DNA of 64,000 nt. It comes from Methanoregula boonei 6A8 (lineage in GTDB: Archaea; Halobacteriota; Methanomicrobia; Methanomicrobiales; Methanospirillaceae). Below, one piece after another: positions 16,120 through 21,980 of this stretch (position 1 is its first letter; every line of letters begins with the position of its first letter). Below the pieces are notes generated by a model. It saw nothing but the letters and a program-made list of their open reading frames with translations. It was not told where the DNA came from and did no database searches. The stretch covers positions 930,001 to 994,000 of the forward strand of contig NC_009712.1 of assembly GCF_000017625.1 (NCBI RefSeq). Reading direction: 5' to 3'. The position numbers were made by a program, and so were the translations under genes.

Positions 16120-18231
16120 TTACCACTTCTGCTGCCGGTAACGCCAGACGAGCGTGATCAGCGCACCCCCTGCAATGAGGCAGACTGCTGCGATTGCGAG
16201 GATAATCCGGTTCTTCAGGAGAATTTCTCCAATGATCCCGGATACAGATTCCGGGGGATGGGGTAAACCGGTCTCGGGTTCTTGGCCGGCGGTTCCCGGC
16301 GATCCAACCGAGACAAGACCAAATTGGGATAGCCCGTGGGGGGAATTTCCCGCAAAGACAAGAAGACCCTGTGCATCTGTCCCCTGGTACGAGGTATCGA
16401 GCATATCAGCGGACTGGTCATCACCGATCCGGCCGATAGATATGGATTCGATTCCCCCATGATTCCCCACCCAGCCGGGGCTGATCGCCAGGCTTACCGT
16501 AGCCGGCCCGGTTGCTGCAAAGTTGGTTTTTGTAATGGTTACAACACAGGCAATTGAATTGAGCTGCCGGCCGTCATTTTCAGCTGCCTGCCGGAGCGCA
16601 CTGGCAACATCAGAAGTCACCACCTCTGATATGGTGGTCGTGATCGCGGCATTTTGGGGGATCGAGGCCAGCGATGCATTGACCGCTGCCGAGACATTGC
16701 CAAAACTTAAGGACGCGGGGGATGGCGCCGTGGTTATGCTGACCGATTGTACCGTACCTGAAATCACGCTGTTTTCAACAGATGGGCTGCCGTTCGTGAC
16801 AATGACCATGGCAAGACCGGGCTGGTTAAGCGAAAGGGAGGTATTCCCGAGCGTTGCGGAAACGCCGGACTGCGCCGCAAGGGTGGTATTAAACGTAAAG
16901 GTCTGGATCCCGGAAGGTCCCGTGGAGGCACTGAGCCCGGCAAAGGTAAGTGACTGCGTTGTTGTCGCGGCGTTTTCCGAAGGTCCCATCTGTTGCGGCT
17001 GGCCCTGTGGGACTGCCGGGGGGGCTGCGGGAACGGCTGCCACAAAGAGACCCCCGGCACCACCACCGCCTCCGGAGGGACTTTGGCCACCCCCGGATGA
17101 GCTGGTACCTCCCCCGGAAGAGGTAACGGCAGTCACCGCAGCGATTCCGAACAGGGAAATCCCGTGGGGGGATACGACCTCGAACGTATCGGTAGTTCCC
17201 TGGCGGCCCACAAACGTTGTGCTCAGAACTTCTTTTGTCCCGTCGTCGCCAAACCGGATGACCCGGATATTGTTTACATCGCCATTCGCATTCGCGGCCA
17301 CCCATGCATCGTCAAGGCTCAGGTTCATTTTGACACCTGCAGAGTTCAGGCTGGCATCAAGAGAAGCAGCGTTCTGGAACTCCACGGTATAGGCAACAGC
17401 CTGGACATTGAGATTATTGTTTGCTGCTGCTACCTGGAAGGCGTTGGTTGCCGACGCAGTTGCCCCCTGGATAATGCTCTGCTGGAGTGTCACATCTGGG
17501 ACGAGCTGCGTCAGGCCAATCTGGACCTGCGTGCTGACCGTTCCTATACTACCTCCGAGGGATGCCGTTACGGGAGCGCTCTGCATGCTTACGCTCTGGA
17601 TCTGCCCGAGCGTGATGTTGCCGTCCTGTGTGGTAATCCCCGAGCTGACATACTGTACCTGGGACCAGCCGGTTGCGGGGTTCTGCAGGGTTACGGTGTT
17701 TCCGGAAACCTGGGGTGTCCCTGCAAGTGAGGTAAGATTGAGGCTGACCTGCTGGACGCCGTTAACAGTTTGGACCGTTGTCCCGGCAAAGGTGGTTGAA
17801 ACCGTGGTTGTATTTGCCACAGTCCCCTGTGAAAGTGCCGTTGTGTTAAAAGTCGCATCGGTGCCGGCTGCACGGTTGCCGGCAAGATCAATCGAGACAA
17901 CCTGGTAATGGTACGTGGTGGCCGGGGAGAGGCTGTGCAGGGACAGCACGTGGTCTTCGGTCATGACCCCGTCTGTGCTGACGGACCCGTAGCCCGTGGT
18001 CGTGCCATAGAGAACCGTGCTGTTACCAAAAAAATTGGTGTTCCAGGTGATCGTGGCGTTGCCGGTGTCGATACCGGAGACTGATATATTATAGATAACC
18101 CGAGGGATACTGCCAGATATGGCAACCGTTGCAGAATTTGTCGCACCTGCGGGATCGGCAAAGACAACCAGTACGGTAAGAATACAACATAAGACAAGGA
18201 AAAAAACAGGAGTGTTTTTTTTGCCAATCAT
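16120..18231 (-). CDS. Large secreted, C-terminally anchored surface protein with two homologous modules
   Basis: 703 residues. Signal peptide at about 8-30, then a fibronectin type III-like domain (about 40-130, SPATTYHYQVVSIDLAGN). Two related modules of roughly 200 residues follow, each ending in SPHG(I/L)S.FG, the pattern of PGF-pre-PGF type archaeal surface domains. They are separated by a Gly/Ser/Pro linker (about 375-400). A TM helix near 676-696 and basic tail RYRQQKW anchor it. Rich in NxS/T sites, so probably N-glycosylated. Starts inside the stop of the 18228 gene; last of four co-oriented secreted proteins. Confidence 0.75.
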   Translation of the reverse strand: MIGKKNTPVFFLVLCCILTVLVVFADPAGATNSATVAISGSIPRVIYNISVSGIDTGNATITWNTNFFGNSTVLYGTTTGYGSVSTDGVMTEDHVLSLHSLSPATTYHYQVVSIDLAGNRAAGTDATFNTTALSQGTVANTTTVSTTFAGTTVQTVNGVQQVSLNLTSLAGTPQVSGNTVTLQNPATGWSQVQYVSSGITTQDGNITLGQIQSVSMQSAPVTASLGGSIGTVSTQVQIGLTQLVPDVTLQQSIIQGATASATNAFQVAAANNNLNVQAVAYTVEFQNAASLDASLNSAGVKMNLSLDDAWVAANANGDVNNIRVIRFGDDGTKEVLSTTFVGRQGTTDTFEVVSPHGISLFGIAAVTAVTSSGGGTSSSGGGQSPSGGGGGAGGLFVAAVPAAPPAVPQGQPQQMGPSENAATTTQSLTFAGLSASTGPSGIQTFTFNTTLAAQSGVSATLGNTSLSLNQPGLAMVIVTNGSPSVENSVISGTVQSVSITTAPSPASLSFGNVSAAVNASLASIPQNAAITTTISEVVTSDVASALRQAAENDGRQLNSIACVVTITKTNFAATGPATVSLAISPGWVGNHGGIESISIGRIGDDQSADMLDTSYQGTDAQGLLVFAGNSPHGLSQFGLVSVGSPGTAGQEPETGLPHPPESVSGIIGEILLKNRIILAIAAVCLIAGGALITLVWRYRQQKW

Positions 18232-19232
18232 TTCCTCCGCCCGACCGTGGCGCCAAAGATGATTGTTGCGGCAGCAAAAGATATGGTGCTGAGTGCCACA
18301 GGAAGGGATGCTTTTGTGGGCGTACCGGTGGGAGAAACCGTACTTCCCGGTGACTGCGTACTCACTCCTGCTGACGGCGGGGCGTTTGTGGATGTGATTA
18401 CCGGTGATGACGGTTGCTGAAATACGAACTGAGTAGTTTTCTCATCAAGGACCTGTCCACCGGGAAGGAGCACGTCCGATTTTATGGTATAATTGCCATA
18501 TGGCAGGTTTGTCACATCTGCTTTGGCGGTATAATTGATGGTACTTCCCGGGATGATGGCAAATACGGATGGTGCCAGGGATACGTTGGCGATGAGATTT
18601 CCCGCTATGTTGGTAATGGTTACCTTGTTGACCGTGGAGTAGTAGTGAACATTACCGGTATTCTGGAATCCTGTTGTGACAACGAGCGGCTCACCACCTG
18701 TCCCTCCTGAGGCATCGATAGTTGTAATGCTGCCGGTCAGGGTCTGTGTGCTTCCTGCTATGGTAACAAGAACCGGCACATTTACCGCAGTAGAAATTGG
18801 CGCCCCGTTTTCGGGAACGGCATGGATGTAGATAATTGCGTACCGTCCTCCAGTACCCACGTTCTGGGGCAGGGTAATGGTTGCAATAATATCCTGTTTT
18901 GTTCCAGGCCCCAGATGAAAGGAGGTATTGTCAAGGGAAATGAAATTCCGCGCCGAGTACGGGCTTGTGTCTTTTGCCGGATCAAGGGCAAAATAGCCCT
19001 GATCTGCACCCTGGCCAAACCCCATCACGCCTGCCTGGATATCCACGGGATTTTCCCCAGCCCCGTTTACTACGGTCATTTTAAAGCTGTCCGTCCCCCC
19101 CGGGGGGATACTGCCTTTGTAAATTGCACCAGATACACCGATTGCGGTCACCGGTGCGATGCAGGATACGACGAGCAGGAGCAGCACTGCCAAACCGGCA
19201 TGTCTCCATGACTGTAAAAGAAAATCTCTCAT
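18228..19232 (-). CDS. DUF916/DUF3324-like membrane-anchored surface protein
   Basis: 334 residues from MRDFLLQS (GAGAGGT five bases upstream favours it over 19259). Signal peptide at about 12-31. A first beta-sandwich holds ..NFISLDNTSFHLGPGTKQDIIATITLP and GGRYAIIYIHAV. A second holds FQNTGNVHYYSTVNKVTI and NLPYGNYTIKSDVLLPGG. A Ser/Thr/Pro stalk, a C-terminal TM helix and GRRK follow. This is the layout of Gram-positive WxL-interacting proteins (DUF916-DUF3324-TM). I infer the same job: an anchored receptor for the small secreted proteins encoded just upstream. Confidence 0.65.
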   Translation of the reverse strand: MRDFLLQSWRHAGLAVLLLLVVSCIAPVTAIGVSGAIYKGSIPPGGTDSFKMTVVNGAGENPVDIQAGVMGFGQGADQGYFALDPAKDTSPYSARNFISLDNTSFHLGPGTKQDIIATITLPQNVGTGGRYAIIYIHAVPENGAPISTAVNVPVLVTIAGSTQTLTGSITTIDASGGTGGEPLVVTTGFQNTGNVHYYSTVNKVTITNIAGNLIANVSLAPSVFAIIPGSTINYTAKADVTNLPYGNYTIKSDVLLPGGQVLDEKTTQFVFQQPSSPVITSTNAPPSAGVSTQSPGSTVSPTGTPTKASLPVALSTISFAAATIIFGATVGRRK

Positions 19233-19283
19233 AGGGTACCTCTCAATATTTTTTACCACGAAAGTGATGCCGTCTTTTCACGG

Positions 19284-19823
19284 CTATTCCAGTACCGTTC
19301 CTGTAAACAGGATATCGATCCTGTACTTGTTCCCATTGGTCAGGCGAGGATCAGTGAGCGTAACGGCCTGACTGAATATGATCGGGAGTGTTACCGTGCC
19401 TGGACTTTTTGATCCGGAATACACCAGAAGAGTACCTGCGCCCGGCGTCCCGTTATAGCCGGTTATGCCAGGATCCGGGTCAGGTGACGTGTTCATACCG
19501 AAGGGATCGGAAAGCACCTTAAATGCGGGTGCAGCGATATAGCGTGCATCCGTATCGTTGTACTCCGTCATATATCCACCAGTTCCGGTGGGTTTTCCCA
19601 CAAGGGGATCCGAAGCAGTTACGCTCCAATTGCCGGCATCGGTTGTTACCGTAAGGGATATGGATGAATCCTGGTTTGTGGTCCCTGGTGTAAGCTGCAT
19701 ATCCGCAATAGTACCAGATACGCTAAGCCCGATCGATTGTGCGGGTACTGGCAGGGAGTACAGCAGCATGAAGAGTACCGCTGCTGTCAATATCTTGATG
19801 CAGATTCTGTCAGGATCCTGCAT
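19284..19823 (-). CDS. Small secreted beta-rich protein
   Basis: 179 residues: signal peptide (about 8-29), then a beta-rich domain with no cysteines, ending GNKYRIDILFTGTV. Placement upstream of the DUF916-like gene (51-base gap) and the final beta-strand pattern shared with the 19905 protein suggest a WxL-like secreted ligand, but no WxL motif is visible. Family not recognised. Confidence 0.6.
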   Translation of the reverse strand: MQDPDRICIKILTAAVLFMLLYSLPVPAQSIGLSVSGTIADMQLTPGTTNQDSSISLTVTTDAGNWSVTASDPLVGKPTGTGGYMTEYNDTDARYIAAPAFKVLSDPFGMNTSPDPDPGITGYNGTPGAGTLLVYSGSKSPGTVTLPIIFSQAVTLTDPRLTNGNKYRIDILFTGTVLE

Positions 19824-19904
19824 GCTCTCTCCGGCAATTACTCACGGAAATACAAAGGATACATGACCGGCATTTCTGGTTCATGCGGATAACCAAAAAG
19901 AAAA

Positions 19905-20462
19905 TTATCCCCCTGTTGCCGCTATCGTATAGGTCAGCTGGATCCAGTAATTGTACCCTGTCGGCAGCTCAAGATCCGTATAGGCAACCGGCTGGGTGAT
20001 CGTATTTGTGAGCAGTACCGGATTGGTGTTTGCCGATCCCGTGTAAACGGTTCGACTAGCGGTTAAGTCCTGGATACTGGATCCCGTCGCGCCATAGGTC
20101 GAATTACTGTTCCCGGTGAACTGCAGGGGCGAGGTAAGGGCTGCATGAACCGGCGAAAGCGTTCCCGACGTTGTGGCATTTACCAGGTGACCGGTGTTAT
20201 ATGTTCCAGACGTGGTATCTGCAACAGTAATCTGATATCCCGTATTTACCGTGGCAGTTATCCCAAGCGATGTATTTGATGCCGGTGAGGCTTGCGGATC
20301 AAGAGGCAAATAAAGGGAGGTCTGGTTTAGAGAAATCGCAACATACGATGCCGGATTTCCCTGAATAGATACCGGCGTGGTTTCATCAGCCATAACCGGT
20401 GCAATCATCATGCATGCAATGGCCAGGAGGCCAGCAATAACGAGCAATTTCAGATTCATCAT
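19905..20462 (-). CDS. Small secreted beta-rich protein (second)
   Basis: 185 residues: signal peptide MNLKLLVIAGLLAIACMMIAPVMA, then a Ser/Thr/Asn-rich beta domain. Its last strand, GYNYWIQLTYTI, parallels GNKYRIDILFTG in the 19284 protein, so the two may be distant paralogues. First gene of the surface operon; an SD-like GGAG precedes the ATG. Function unknown; likely secreted and assembled on the cell surface with its neighbours. Confidence 0.6.
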   Translation of the reverse strand: MMNLKLLVIAGLLAIACMMIAPVMADETTPVSIQGNPASYVAISLNQTSLYLPLDPQASPASNTSLGITATVNTGYQITVADTTSGTYNTGHLVNATTSGTLSPVHAALTSPLQFTGNSNSTYGATGSSIQDLTASRTVYTGSANTNPVLLTNTITQPVAYTDLELPTGYNYWIQLTYTIAATGG

Positions 20463-20741
20463 TTTTCTCCGGTTCGATCACAAGGATCGTTACTGGCGGG
20501 TGACTTCACTATAACGATAAAGGTAAAGAAAATGCTCAGCAATGGCCGGTTCTCTCATATCAGAAAAAAACCCGGCATATAAAATAAGGGAAAACGCTCA
20601 GCAATAATCTAACTCTTTTTTAGGAAGAAAAGAATTTATTTTTGGGGAAATTTCCCCGGAAACAACCATAAAAACCTCCATGTACGTGCAGGGAATACCA
20701 GTTCATTTTTTTTGAAGTTACAGAAATCAGGGACGGGATCA

Positions 20742-21980
20742 ATGAACAGGAAAATATTGTACTGGGGAGGGATTTTTGCGTTTTTTTGTCTGGGGCTGGT
20801 CCTGACTCTCTCCGGTATTTTCTTTTTCTTGGGCATCACCGCGGCGGGCTCGCGCGCCTCTGCTGCTCCTCCCGTCCTCCTGTCGCAGGGAGGCCCGGTT
20901 CCCGTTCCGGCACAGACCCTGGGTACATCTCCCGTCCAGAAAGGTCCCGACCAACCGCCGGGCCAGTATGTCCGGATCCTGACGATCGATGAGAAAACCA
21001 ATACCCCTCTTCCCGCAGTCTTGCTCTTTATCAATGGTCTTTACGCAGGCATGACCGCGGAAAACGGGTCCTTTGACCTCCTGATCACCGGTCCCGGCCC
21101 AAACAGCAGTACTATCCGTGCGGTAAAAGATGGCTACCAGGATATAACCATACGGTCTGATCTCATCAGGCCGGGTGAGGTGCTGCTAAACCTTACCCCC
21201 GGTGATATAATTCCGGTGGAAATTAACGGCCCTCGCGAATCAGAAATAAATATCGTATTTGTTCCCTCCCATACCTCGTTTAACGCCACGGACAACACCA
21301 AAACTGAATTGGATGGATATCCCGGGGGAGAAACGCAGTTTGCATCTGATGTCCGTACGTTTATCAACCAGACGTTTCTGGCATACCCGGCAATCACCTC
21401 GCCCTCGTACCCCCTCCCCCGGGATTACAGACAACGCTTTGATTTTTATTATTTCTGGGACGGTACGACCTATGCAGATGCTTTCGACAGCTGTGCAGGA
21501 ACAATCCCGCAGGACTACTGGGACAATGTCACATTCAGTGACCTGACGATTATACTGTACCCCTCGTACCAGGGCGTGTACTCAGGACCTCCCGGTCAGC
21601 CGGTGGGGTGTACCAATCCCAACGGGCTTGGCAGGGTATACCTCAAGATCTCTGCGGATATGCCTTCCCTTGCGATGCACGAGATCGGCCACGGTCTTTA
21701 TGGCCTCATGGACACCTACTGCGGGGACACCTATTATGCCCAGAATGATCCTGATCCGAATCTCTGGAGCTCCAAGGATGGCTGCAGGGAATATGCCGGT
21801 GGGAATGGCTGGGATCCGGATGCCTGCAGGCAGGTCTCCTCCGGTGTCCCGGGCGGTTGCACAAAAGAGTTCTGGCGCTGGGACCCGGACCCGGATATCA
21901 TGTATTACGGGTACGCGGGCACGTTCGGTAATGCATCGACCAAAAGGATAGTATCCACGCTCATGAGGGTATCTCCCTGA
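20742..21980 (+). CDS. Membrane-anchored HEIGH zinc metalloprotease-like protein
   Basis: 412 residues. N-terminal TM at about 5-30, then a CarboxypepD_reg-like beta domain (about 85-165: TPLPAVLLFINGLYAGMTAENGSFDLL..). A peptidase-like domain follows with SLAMHEIGHGLYGLMDTY: HExGH with a downstream acid, as in M64/metzincin-like zinc peptidases. The C-terminus ends RIVSTLMRVSP. A TTG 30 bases upstream is an alternative start. Extracytoplasmic. Divergent from the surface operon (280 bases apart) and followed closely by the membrane response regulator. Processing of the surface proteins is a reasonable inference. Confidence 0.7.
   Translation: MNRKILYWGGIFAFFCLGLVLTLSGIFFFLGITAAGSRASAAPPVLLSQGGPVPVPAQTLGTSPVQKGPDQPPGQYVRILTIDEKTNTPLPAVLLFINGLYAGMTAENGSFDLLITGPGPNSSTIRAVKDGYQDITIRSDLIRPGEVLLNLTPGDIIPVEINGPRESEINIVFVPSHTSFNATDNTKTELDGYPGGETQFASDVRTFINQTFLAYPAITSPSYPLPRDYRQRFDFYYFWDGTTYADAFDSCAGTIPQDYWDNVTFSDLTIILYPSYQGVYSGPPGQPVGCTNPNGLGRVYLKISADMPSLAMHEIGHGLYGLMDTYCGDTYYAQNDPDPNLWSSKDGCREYAGGNGWDPDACRQVSSGVPGGCTKEFWRWDPDPDIMYYGYAGTFGNASTKRIVSTLMRVSP

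Follow-up and report, generated by a model that had tools for sequence, protein, structure and literature searches.

A WxLIP- and PapD-like protein encoded with beta-domain partners in Methanoregula boonei: a candidate strand-complementation surface system of methanogens

The window analyzed here, a 64,000-nucleotide stretch of the genome of Methanoregula boonei 6A8 (2,542,943 bp, one contig), a methanogen of the Methanomicrobiales, contains four neighboring genes on the minus strand, which we name A1, A2, B, and C. These genes rather probably encode a strand-complementation surface system, in which the WxLIP/PapD-like protein B would capture the A-domains of its partners and N-terminal strands would then replace the strand of B. 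The four genes and one segment of A1 are listed below.

19905..20462, minus strand: A1, a secreted small A-domain protein of 185 aa (ORF; A-domain HMM E 1.1e-28; match in the profile search of its own genome)
After the leader of A1, minus strand: its N-terminal donor-strand-like tail, DETTPVSIQGNP (tail comparison)
19284..19823, minus strand: A2, a secreted small A-domain protein of 179 aa with an all-beta model (A-domain HMM E 2.8e-33; match in the profile search of its own genome; AF2 pLDDT 87)
18228..19232, alternative start GTG 19259, minus strand: B, a WxLIP/PapD-like protein with two tandem Ig-like domains and a C-terminal membrane anchor (profile and fold)
16120..18231, minus strand: C, an anchored modular protein of 703 aa (ORF; sub-threshold FN3-type match; motif score)

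The gap between A1 and A2 is 81 bp and that between A2 and B is 24 or 51 bp, while B and C overlap by an ATGA. B comprises 343 aa from GTG 19259 or 334 aa from ATG 19232, and the sequence GAGAGGT lies just 5' of the latter. Owing to the short gaps and the overlap, A1, A2, B, and C are likely cotranscribed head to tail as one unit; scans for sigma-70 promoters and terminators stayed at chance level. All four products start with a hydrophobic N-terminal leader, and a hydrophobic stretch accompanied by basic residues forms the C-terminus of B and C. The ORFs and their spacing thus bear out the original prediction of a four-gene operon with two small secreted beta proteins, an anchored B, and an anchored modular C. 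None of the four proteins reaches a curated Pfam or NCBIfam cut-off, and comparison of the A and B families with the named NCBIfam families gave nothing specific. Beside the operon, the product of a divergent gene (window 20712-21980, plus strand) is secreted and has a HEIGH motif like that of zinc peptidases, together with a sub-threshold carboxypeptidase-regulatory-like domain.

B is a homologue of WxLIP (DUF916-DUF3324), a relation that is well supported though B stands outside the cut-off and the motif of the curated family. Profile comparison by hhalign of 53 archaeal-type B proteins with 12 WxLIP proteins from Gram-positive plasmids gave Prob 98.1, E 6.5e-14, and a score of 108.8 over 233 columns, collinear across both domains. 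Domain by domain, B1 matched PGBD with Prob 88.6 and B2 matched HBD with 94.5, against 2.1 and 0.6 for the crossed pairs. The archaeal NEW3-type Ig proteins used as controls matched B with Prob 95 and 84 (E 4e-8 and 8e-6; best score 68.7), mainly via its second domain, and matched WxLIP with Prob 7 and 2. Profile matches to B are also common among archaeal Ig proteins, which keeps the margin in sequence moderate; taken by itself, the sequence favors WxLIP by a clear, not overwhelming margin. Matches of B members to fn3_5 and NPCBM_assoc in Pfam were found as well. The family PF06030 (cut-off 27.3 bits) has no match in the M. boonei genome, and no B relative in the genomes searched exceeds its cut-off; the best relative reaches 21 bits (E 6.9e-4), and sub-cut-off matches occur in 12 of 23 B members (best E 1.9e-4). 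The N-terminal motif of WxLIP, NQIDKxxxYFDLK (PMC10599100), is absent from the 23-row alignment of B and from its consensus. B has a nearly invariant Arg in the sequence GGRYA. Outside the Firmicutes, PF06030 (WxLIP_PGBD) was matched above cut-off in the control genome of Thermotoga maritima.

The AF2 model of B (pLDDT 87.3) consists of two tandem Ig-like domains followed by a transmembrane helix, as assigned by DSSP. When it was compared with 350,542 PDB chains, the top three matches were chains of the Enterococcus faecium WxLIP crystal structures, 9i25_C and 9i1y (Foldseek E 6e-13), with Z 18.8 over 236 residues; the title of 9i25 describes WxLIP bound to long WxL. Single-domain matches follow at Z 13.9, and then the PapD-family chaperones FimC, SfaE, CsuC, and CfaA, which align over both domains (Z 12-12.7 over 178-196 residues) and are second only to WxLIP among the low-rmsd two-domain matches. 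As judged from the model, the two-domain architecture of B is PapD-like, with the reservation that a shared fold is no proof of function. The predicted structure appears to settle the relation of B to WxLIP better than the sequence does. The earlier assignment of 18228-19232 as DUF916/DUF3324-like is thus confirmed by profile and fold alike. The accompanying suggestion of a divergent analogue with no visible WxL motif was right about the motif and too cautious about B, which is a homologue and more than an analogue. The anchor of B is present in most genomes and matches PGF-CTERM in 3 of 39 B proteins. In the Methanothrix/Methanosarcinales group, about ten B proteins lack it and end after the second Ig domain; the anchorless B of the Methanothrix group is a soluble PapD-like protein of two Ig domains.

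A1 and A2 both belong to one unnamed family of C-terminal beta domains, the A-domain, which we built by iterated HMM searches from the loci around B. Of its 81 A-domains, 51 occur in small proteins, and the other 30 terminate large proteins (277-1530 aa), which often contain PKD repeats. In 80 of the 81 the domain ends 0-2 aa from the C-terminus of the protein, the exception reaching the end of its contig, and none of the A-domain proteins has a hydrophobic C-terminal anchor. The original prediction that the small proteins correspond to WxL could not be borne out: W-x-L occurs in the last 20 residues of none of the 81 A-domains, the hhalign match to the WxL profile is not significant (Prob 6.5), and identity with the WxL domain is not demonstrable. 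PF13731 is absent from 21 related genomes and from the Pfam matches listed for A-domain proteins. W-x-[LF] is found in the first part of 38 of the 81, and the general plan, an early W motif and a C-terminal Y-x-h-x-T-[FW] strand, is suggestive of WxL. The model of A2 (AF2 pLDDT 87.2, all-beta) has as its best Foldseek matches the donor-strand pilins Caf1, CsuA/B, FimA/G, and CfaB, all weak (E 6e-3, Z up to 7.9); archaeal AbpA (7ueg) and the cannula protein CanA are also among its weak structural matches. The WxL chain of 9i25 is not among the 50 rows listed for this model, and the two may still share a fold. Together, the predicted folds of B and A2 would tie the pair to strand complementation between chaperone and pilin, a connection that the original prediction did not contain.

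The genes for A and B are conserved together, as had been anticipated. For 47 of 57 B genes, an A-domain gene in the same orientation lies no more than 6 kb away, and for 40 of 54 one lies at most 200 bp upstream; a profile search of the M. boonei genome found two B loci and exactly four A-domains, two at each B locus. The second copy (G000:C1:297992-301532; L027 7945-11521) encodes a B paralogue 44% identical to the B of the window, with one small and one large A-domain gene on the opposite strand. B homologues occur in 21 of 150 genomes of the order and in 26 of 295 genomes of the phylum at E 1e-10, about 12 of them strong, and the same gene set was found again in tens of genomes. The 34 GTDB loci with B include Methanoregula, Methanolinea, a Methanoculleus MAG, Methanocella, Methanothrix, and four Dehalococcoidia genomes. 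Among the bacterial contigs, L074 carries FtsA/FtsZ and L065 undecaprenyl diphosphate synthase (ORFs judged by reading), which makes misbinned archaeal DNA an improbable source; in the tree, the Dehalococcoidia B sequences fall inside a mixed, weakly resolved group. L078 and L081 have the same length, but blastn excluded that they are one shared contig.

Several further loci differ in their surroundings. The Methanothrix-type loci (L073, L076, L079-L084) combine a B lacking the transmembrane helix with several flanking small A-domain genes; Methanothrix is sheathed, and the sheath may therefore be the destination of the product. A divergent branch of B in several Methanoregula-type genomes (L031-L034, B at about 9-10 kb in each) has a conserved neighborhood with TraB-like and KUP-like genes and no A-domain within the 18 kb fetched. 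Remote B-like proteins of other Methanomicrobiales (L046 3902-5152, L047 8596-9834, L048 8947-10140) adjoin secreted proteins of about 360 aa, which in L046 end in GTMxITADQWWGx; these are possibly another receptor-partner pair.

Protein C consists of the N-terminal motif ATVAISGSI, an FN3-like domain with a sub-threshold match to Pur_ac_phosph_N (3e-5), two internal repeat modules, and a C-terminal transmembrane segment. A C profile built without the leaders placed this FN3 family in 13 clusters. The HMM finds no A-domain in C, which is therefore not the counterpart of the large WxL protein, and this assignment was rejected. The N-terminal motif was captured by a PSSM of 9 residues (e.g. NSVTITGEV, ATVAISGSI), learned only from the small A proteins and then applied to every other secreted ORF of at least 150 aa in the B loci, at the position of the mature N-terminus. 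It is present in 32 of the 119 secreted ORFs that share the strand of B and lie no farther than 5 kb from it, against 4 of 182 elsewhere (Fisher p 9e-11, which is optimistic because the loci are related). The carriers include the C of the window, C proteins of the FN3 type, PKD proteins, and large A proteins; they have no other N-terminal domain in common, the motif is short, and some of them are related to each other. From the sequence, a strand common to otherwise different proteins at a free N-terminus would have the appearance of a donor strand. By eye, adjacent small A genes form pairs in which one member has the tail and the other seemingly does not (window, L053, L065); in the window, A1 bears the tail and A2 is apparently without it.

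Parallel insertion is a hallmark of PapD-type chaperones, and on this basis we suggest that A-domains receive the F1-G1 strand of B. Held on the outer face of the membrane by its C-terminal anchor, B would offer the hairpin strand of its first Ig domain to the groove of newly secreted A-domains, so that these stay folded and bound in the way that PapD holds pilins; WxLIP is predicted to do likewise for WxL. The A-domains would be C-terminal acceptor domains, the small ones (A1, A2) serving as subunits and the large ones of other genomes carrying PKD or other binding modules. The strand of B would then give way to the N-terminal strands of A1-type subunits, large partners, C, and PKD proteins, so that subunits would be linked into a short fiber or tied to the anchored C. 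M. boonei is not known to form filaments.

The gene layout in part resembles the WxL cluster of the Firmicutes (small WxL, WxLIP, large WxL). B is a two-Ig receptor-type protein with a C-terminal transmembrane segment and a length of 334-343 aa, against 337-365 aa for WxLIP; the gene for a small secreted beta protein lies directly upstream of the receptor; and at other loci the large modular partners bear the same C-terminal domain as the small ones, in line with the small-large-receptor logic of WxL clusters (PMC10599100, PMC9772566). The earlier comparison with the Gram-positive layout therefore stands for the order of small partner and receptor and for the A-domain at the end of large partners elsewhere, and fails for C; the window itself has small partners only. 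Unlike WxLIP, B has no NQIDKxxxYFDLK motif and stays below the PF06030 cut-off. Unlike the WxL cluster, the A partners lack the C-terminal WxL motif, the hosts lack peptidoglycan, extra FN3/PKD proteins share an N-terminal motif, and the anchor of B is missing in Methanothrix. Methanomicrobiales are not known to produce peptidoglycan, and it would not be the ligand in this order.

The likeness to chaperone-usher pili (PapD/FimC/Caf1M with FimA/Caf1/CsuA-B) lies in the two-domain chaperone fold of B, the weak resemblance of the A2 model to the subunits, the subunit domain at the protein end, the N-terminal extension-like segment, and the FimH-like layout of large proteins with a C-terminal A-domain. 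It differs from them in that B is usually membrane anchored, A has no detectable sequence similarity to pilins, and the outer-membrane usher PF00577 is absent from the M. boonei genome. Secreted all-beta subunits of pilin-like fold are also common to archaeal donor-strand filaments (Sulfolobus threads, AbpA bundling pili) and Bacillus TasA/TapA. Unlike in Sulfolobus threads, where no chaperone was recognized beside the thread gene (PMC9715654), a PapD-like gene adjoins the subunit genes here.

The mechanism can be extended or narrowed. More tentatively, the genes may represent a chaperone-pilus system that archaea and Dehalococcoidia operate without an usher. In it, B would be a tethered (in Methanothrix, soluble) PapD homologue that loads the A-domain subunits, and these would polymerize through donor strands at their N-termini on cells with an S-layer or a sheath; WxL/WxLIP would be its sister, going back to the same ancestral strand-donor module. 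Somewhat doubtful is a static display like that of WxL, in which B would be a permanent membrane receptor holding one or two A-domain proteins by strand insertion without polymerization, the large A-domain proteins and C would be the functional (adhesive) parts, and the S-layer or membrane would take the place of peptidoglycan. Fold and gene layout are indeed closest to WxL clusters, most B proteins are anchored, and 9i25 is titled as a receptor-partner complex, but the anchorless Methanothrix-type B proteins would be odd for a pure receptor, and such a display gives no role to the N-terminal strand-like motif common to A, C, and PKD proteins.

It is improbable that B is just one of many archaeal NEW3/Ig-type surface proteins, with the small proteins as S-layer or sheath accessories and the likeness to WxLIP reflecting a shared Ig fold rather than mechanism. 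The fn3_5 and NPCBM_assoc matches and the profile matches of archaeal NEW3 proteins (Prob 84-95) agree with such a reading, whereas WxLIP ranks first in the whole PDB over both domains, with Z about 5 above any other family, the profile score separates WxLIP from the best control (108.8 against 68.7), and the A and B genes are tightly paired.

No account of a comparable archaeal system turned up in a literature search, with most subscription papers outside its reach. WxL is regarded as part of the Firmicutes cell wall and as linked to peptidoglycan. If archaea and Dehalococcoidia have a homologous receptor whose partners are arranged in an equivalent way, its core function, which in that view is to capture C-terminal beta domains through a donated strand, would be separable from peptidoglycan. 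For the donor-strand filaments known from archaea, no chaperone has been identified (PMC9715654). The B/A system may assemble surface fibers of a kind new to archaea, and B would be a concrete candidate chaperone for such filaments in methanogens, the sheathed Methanothrix included.
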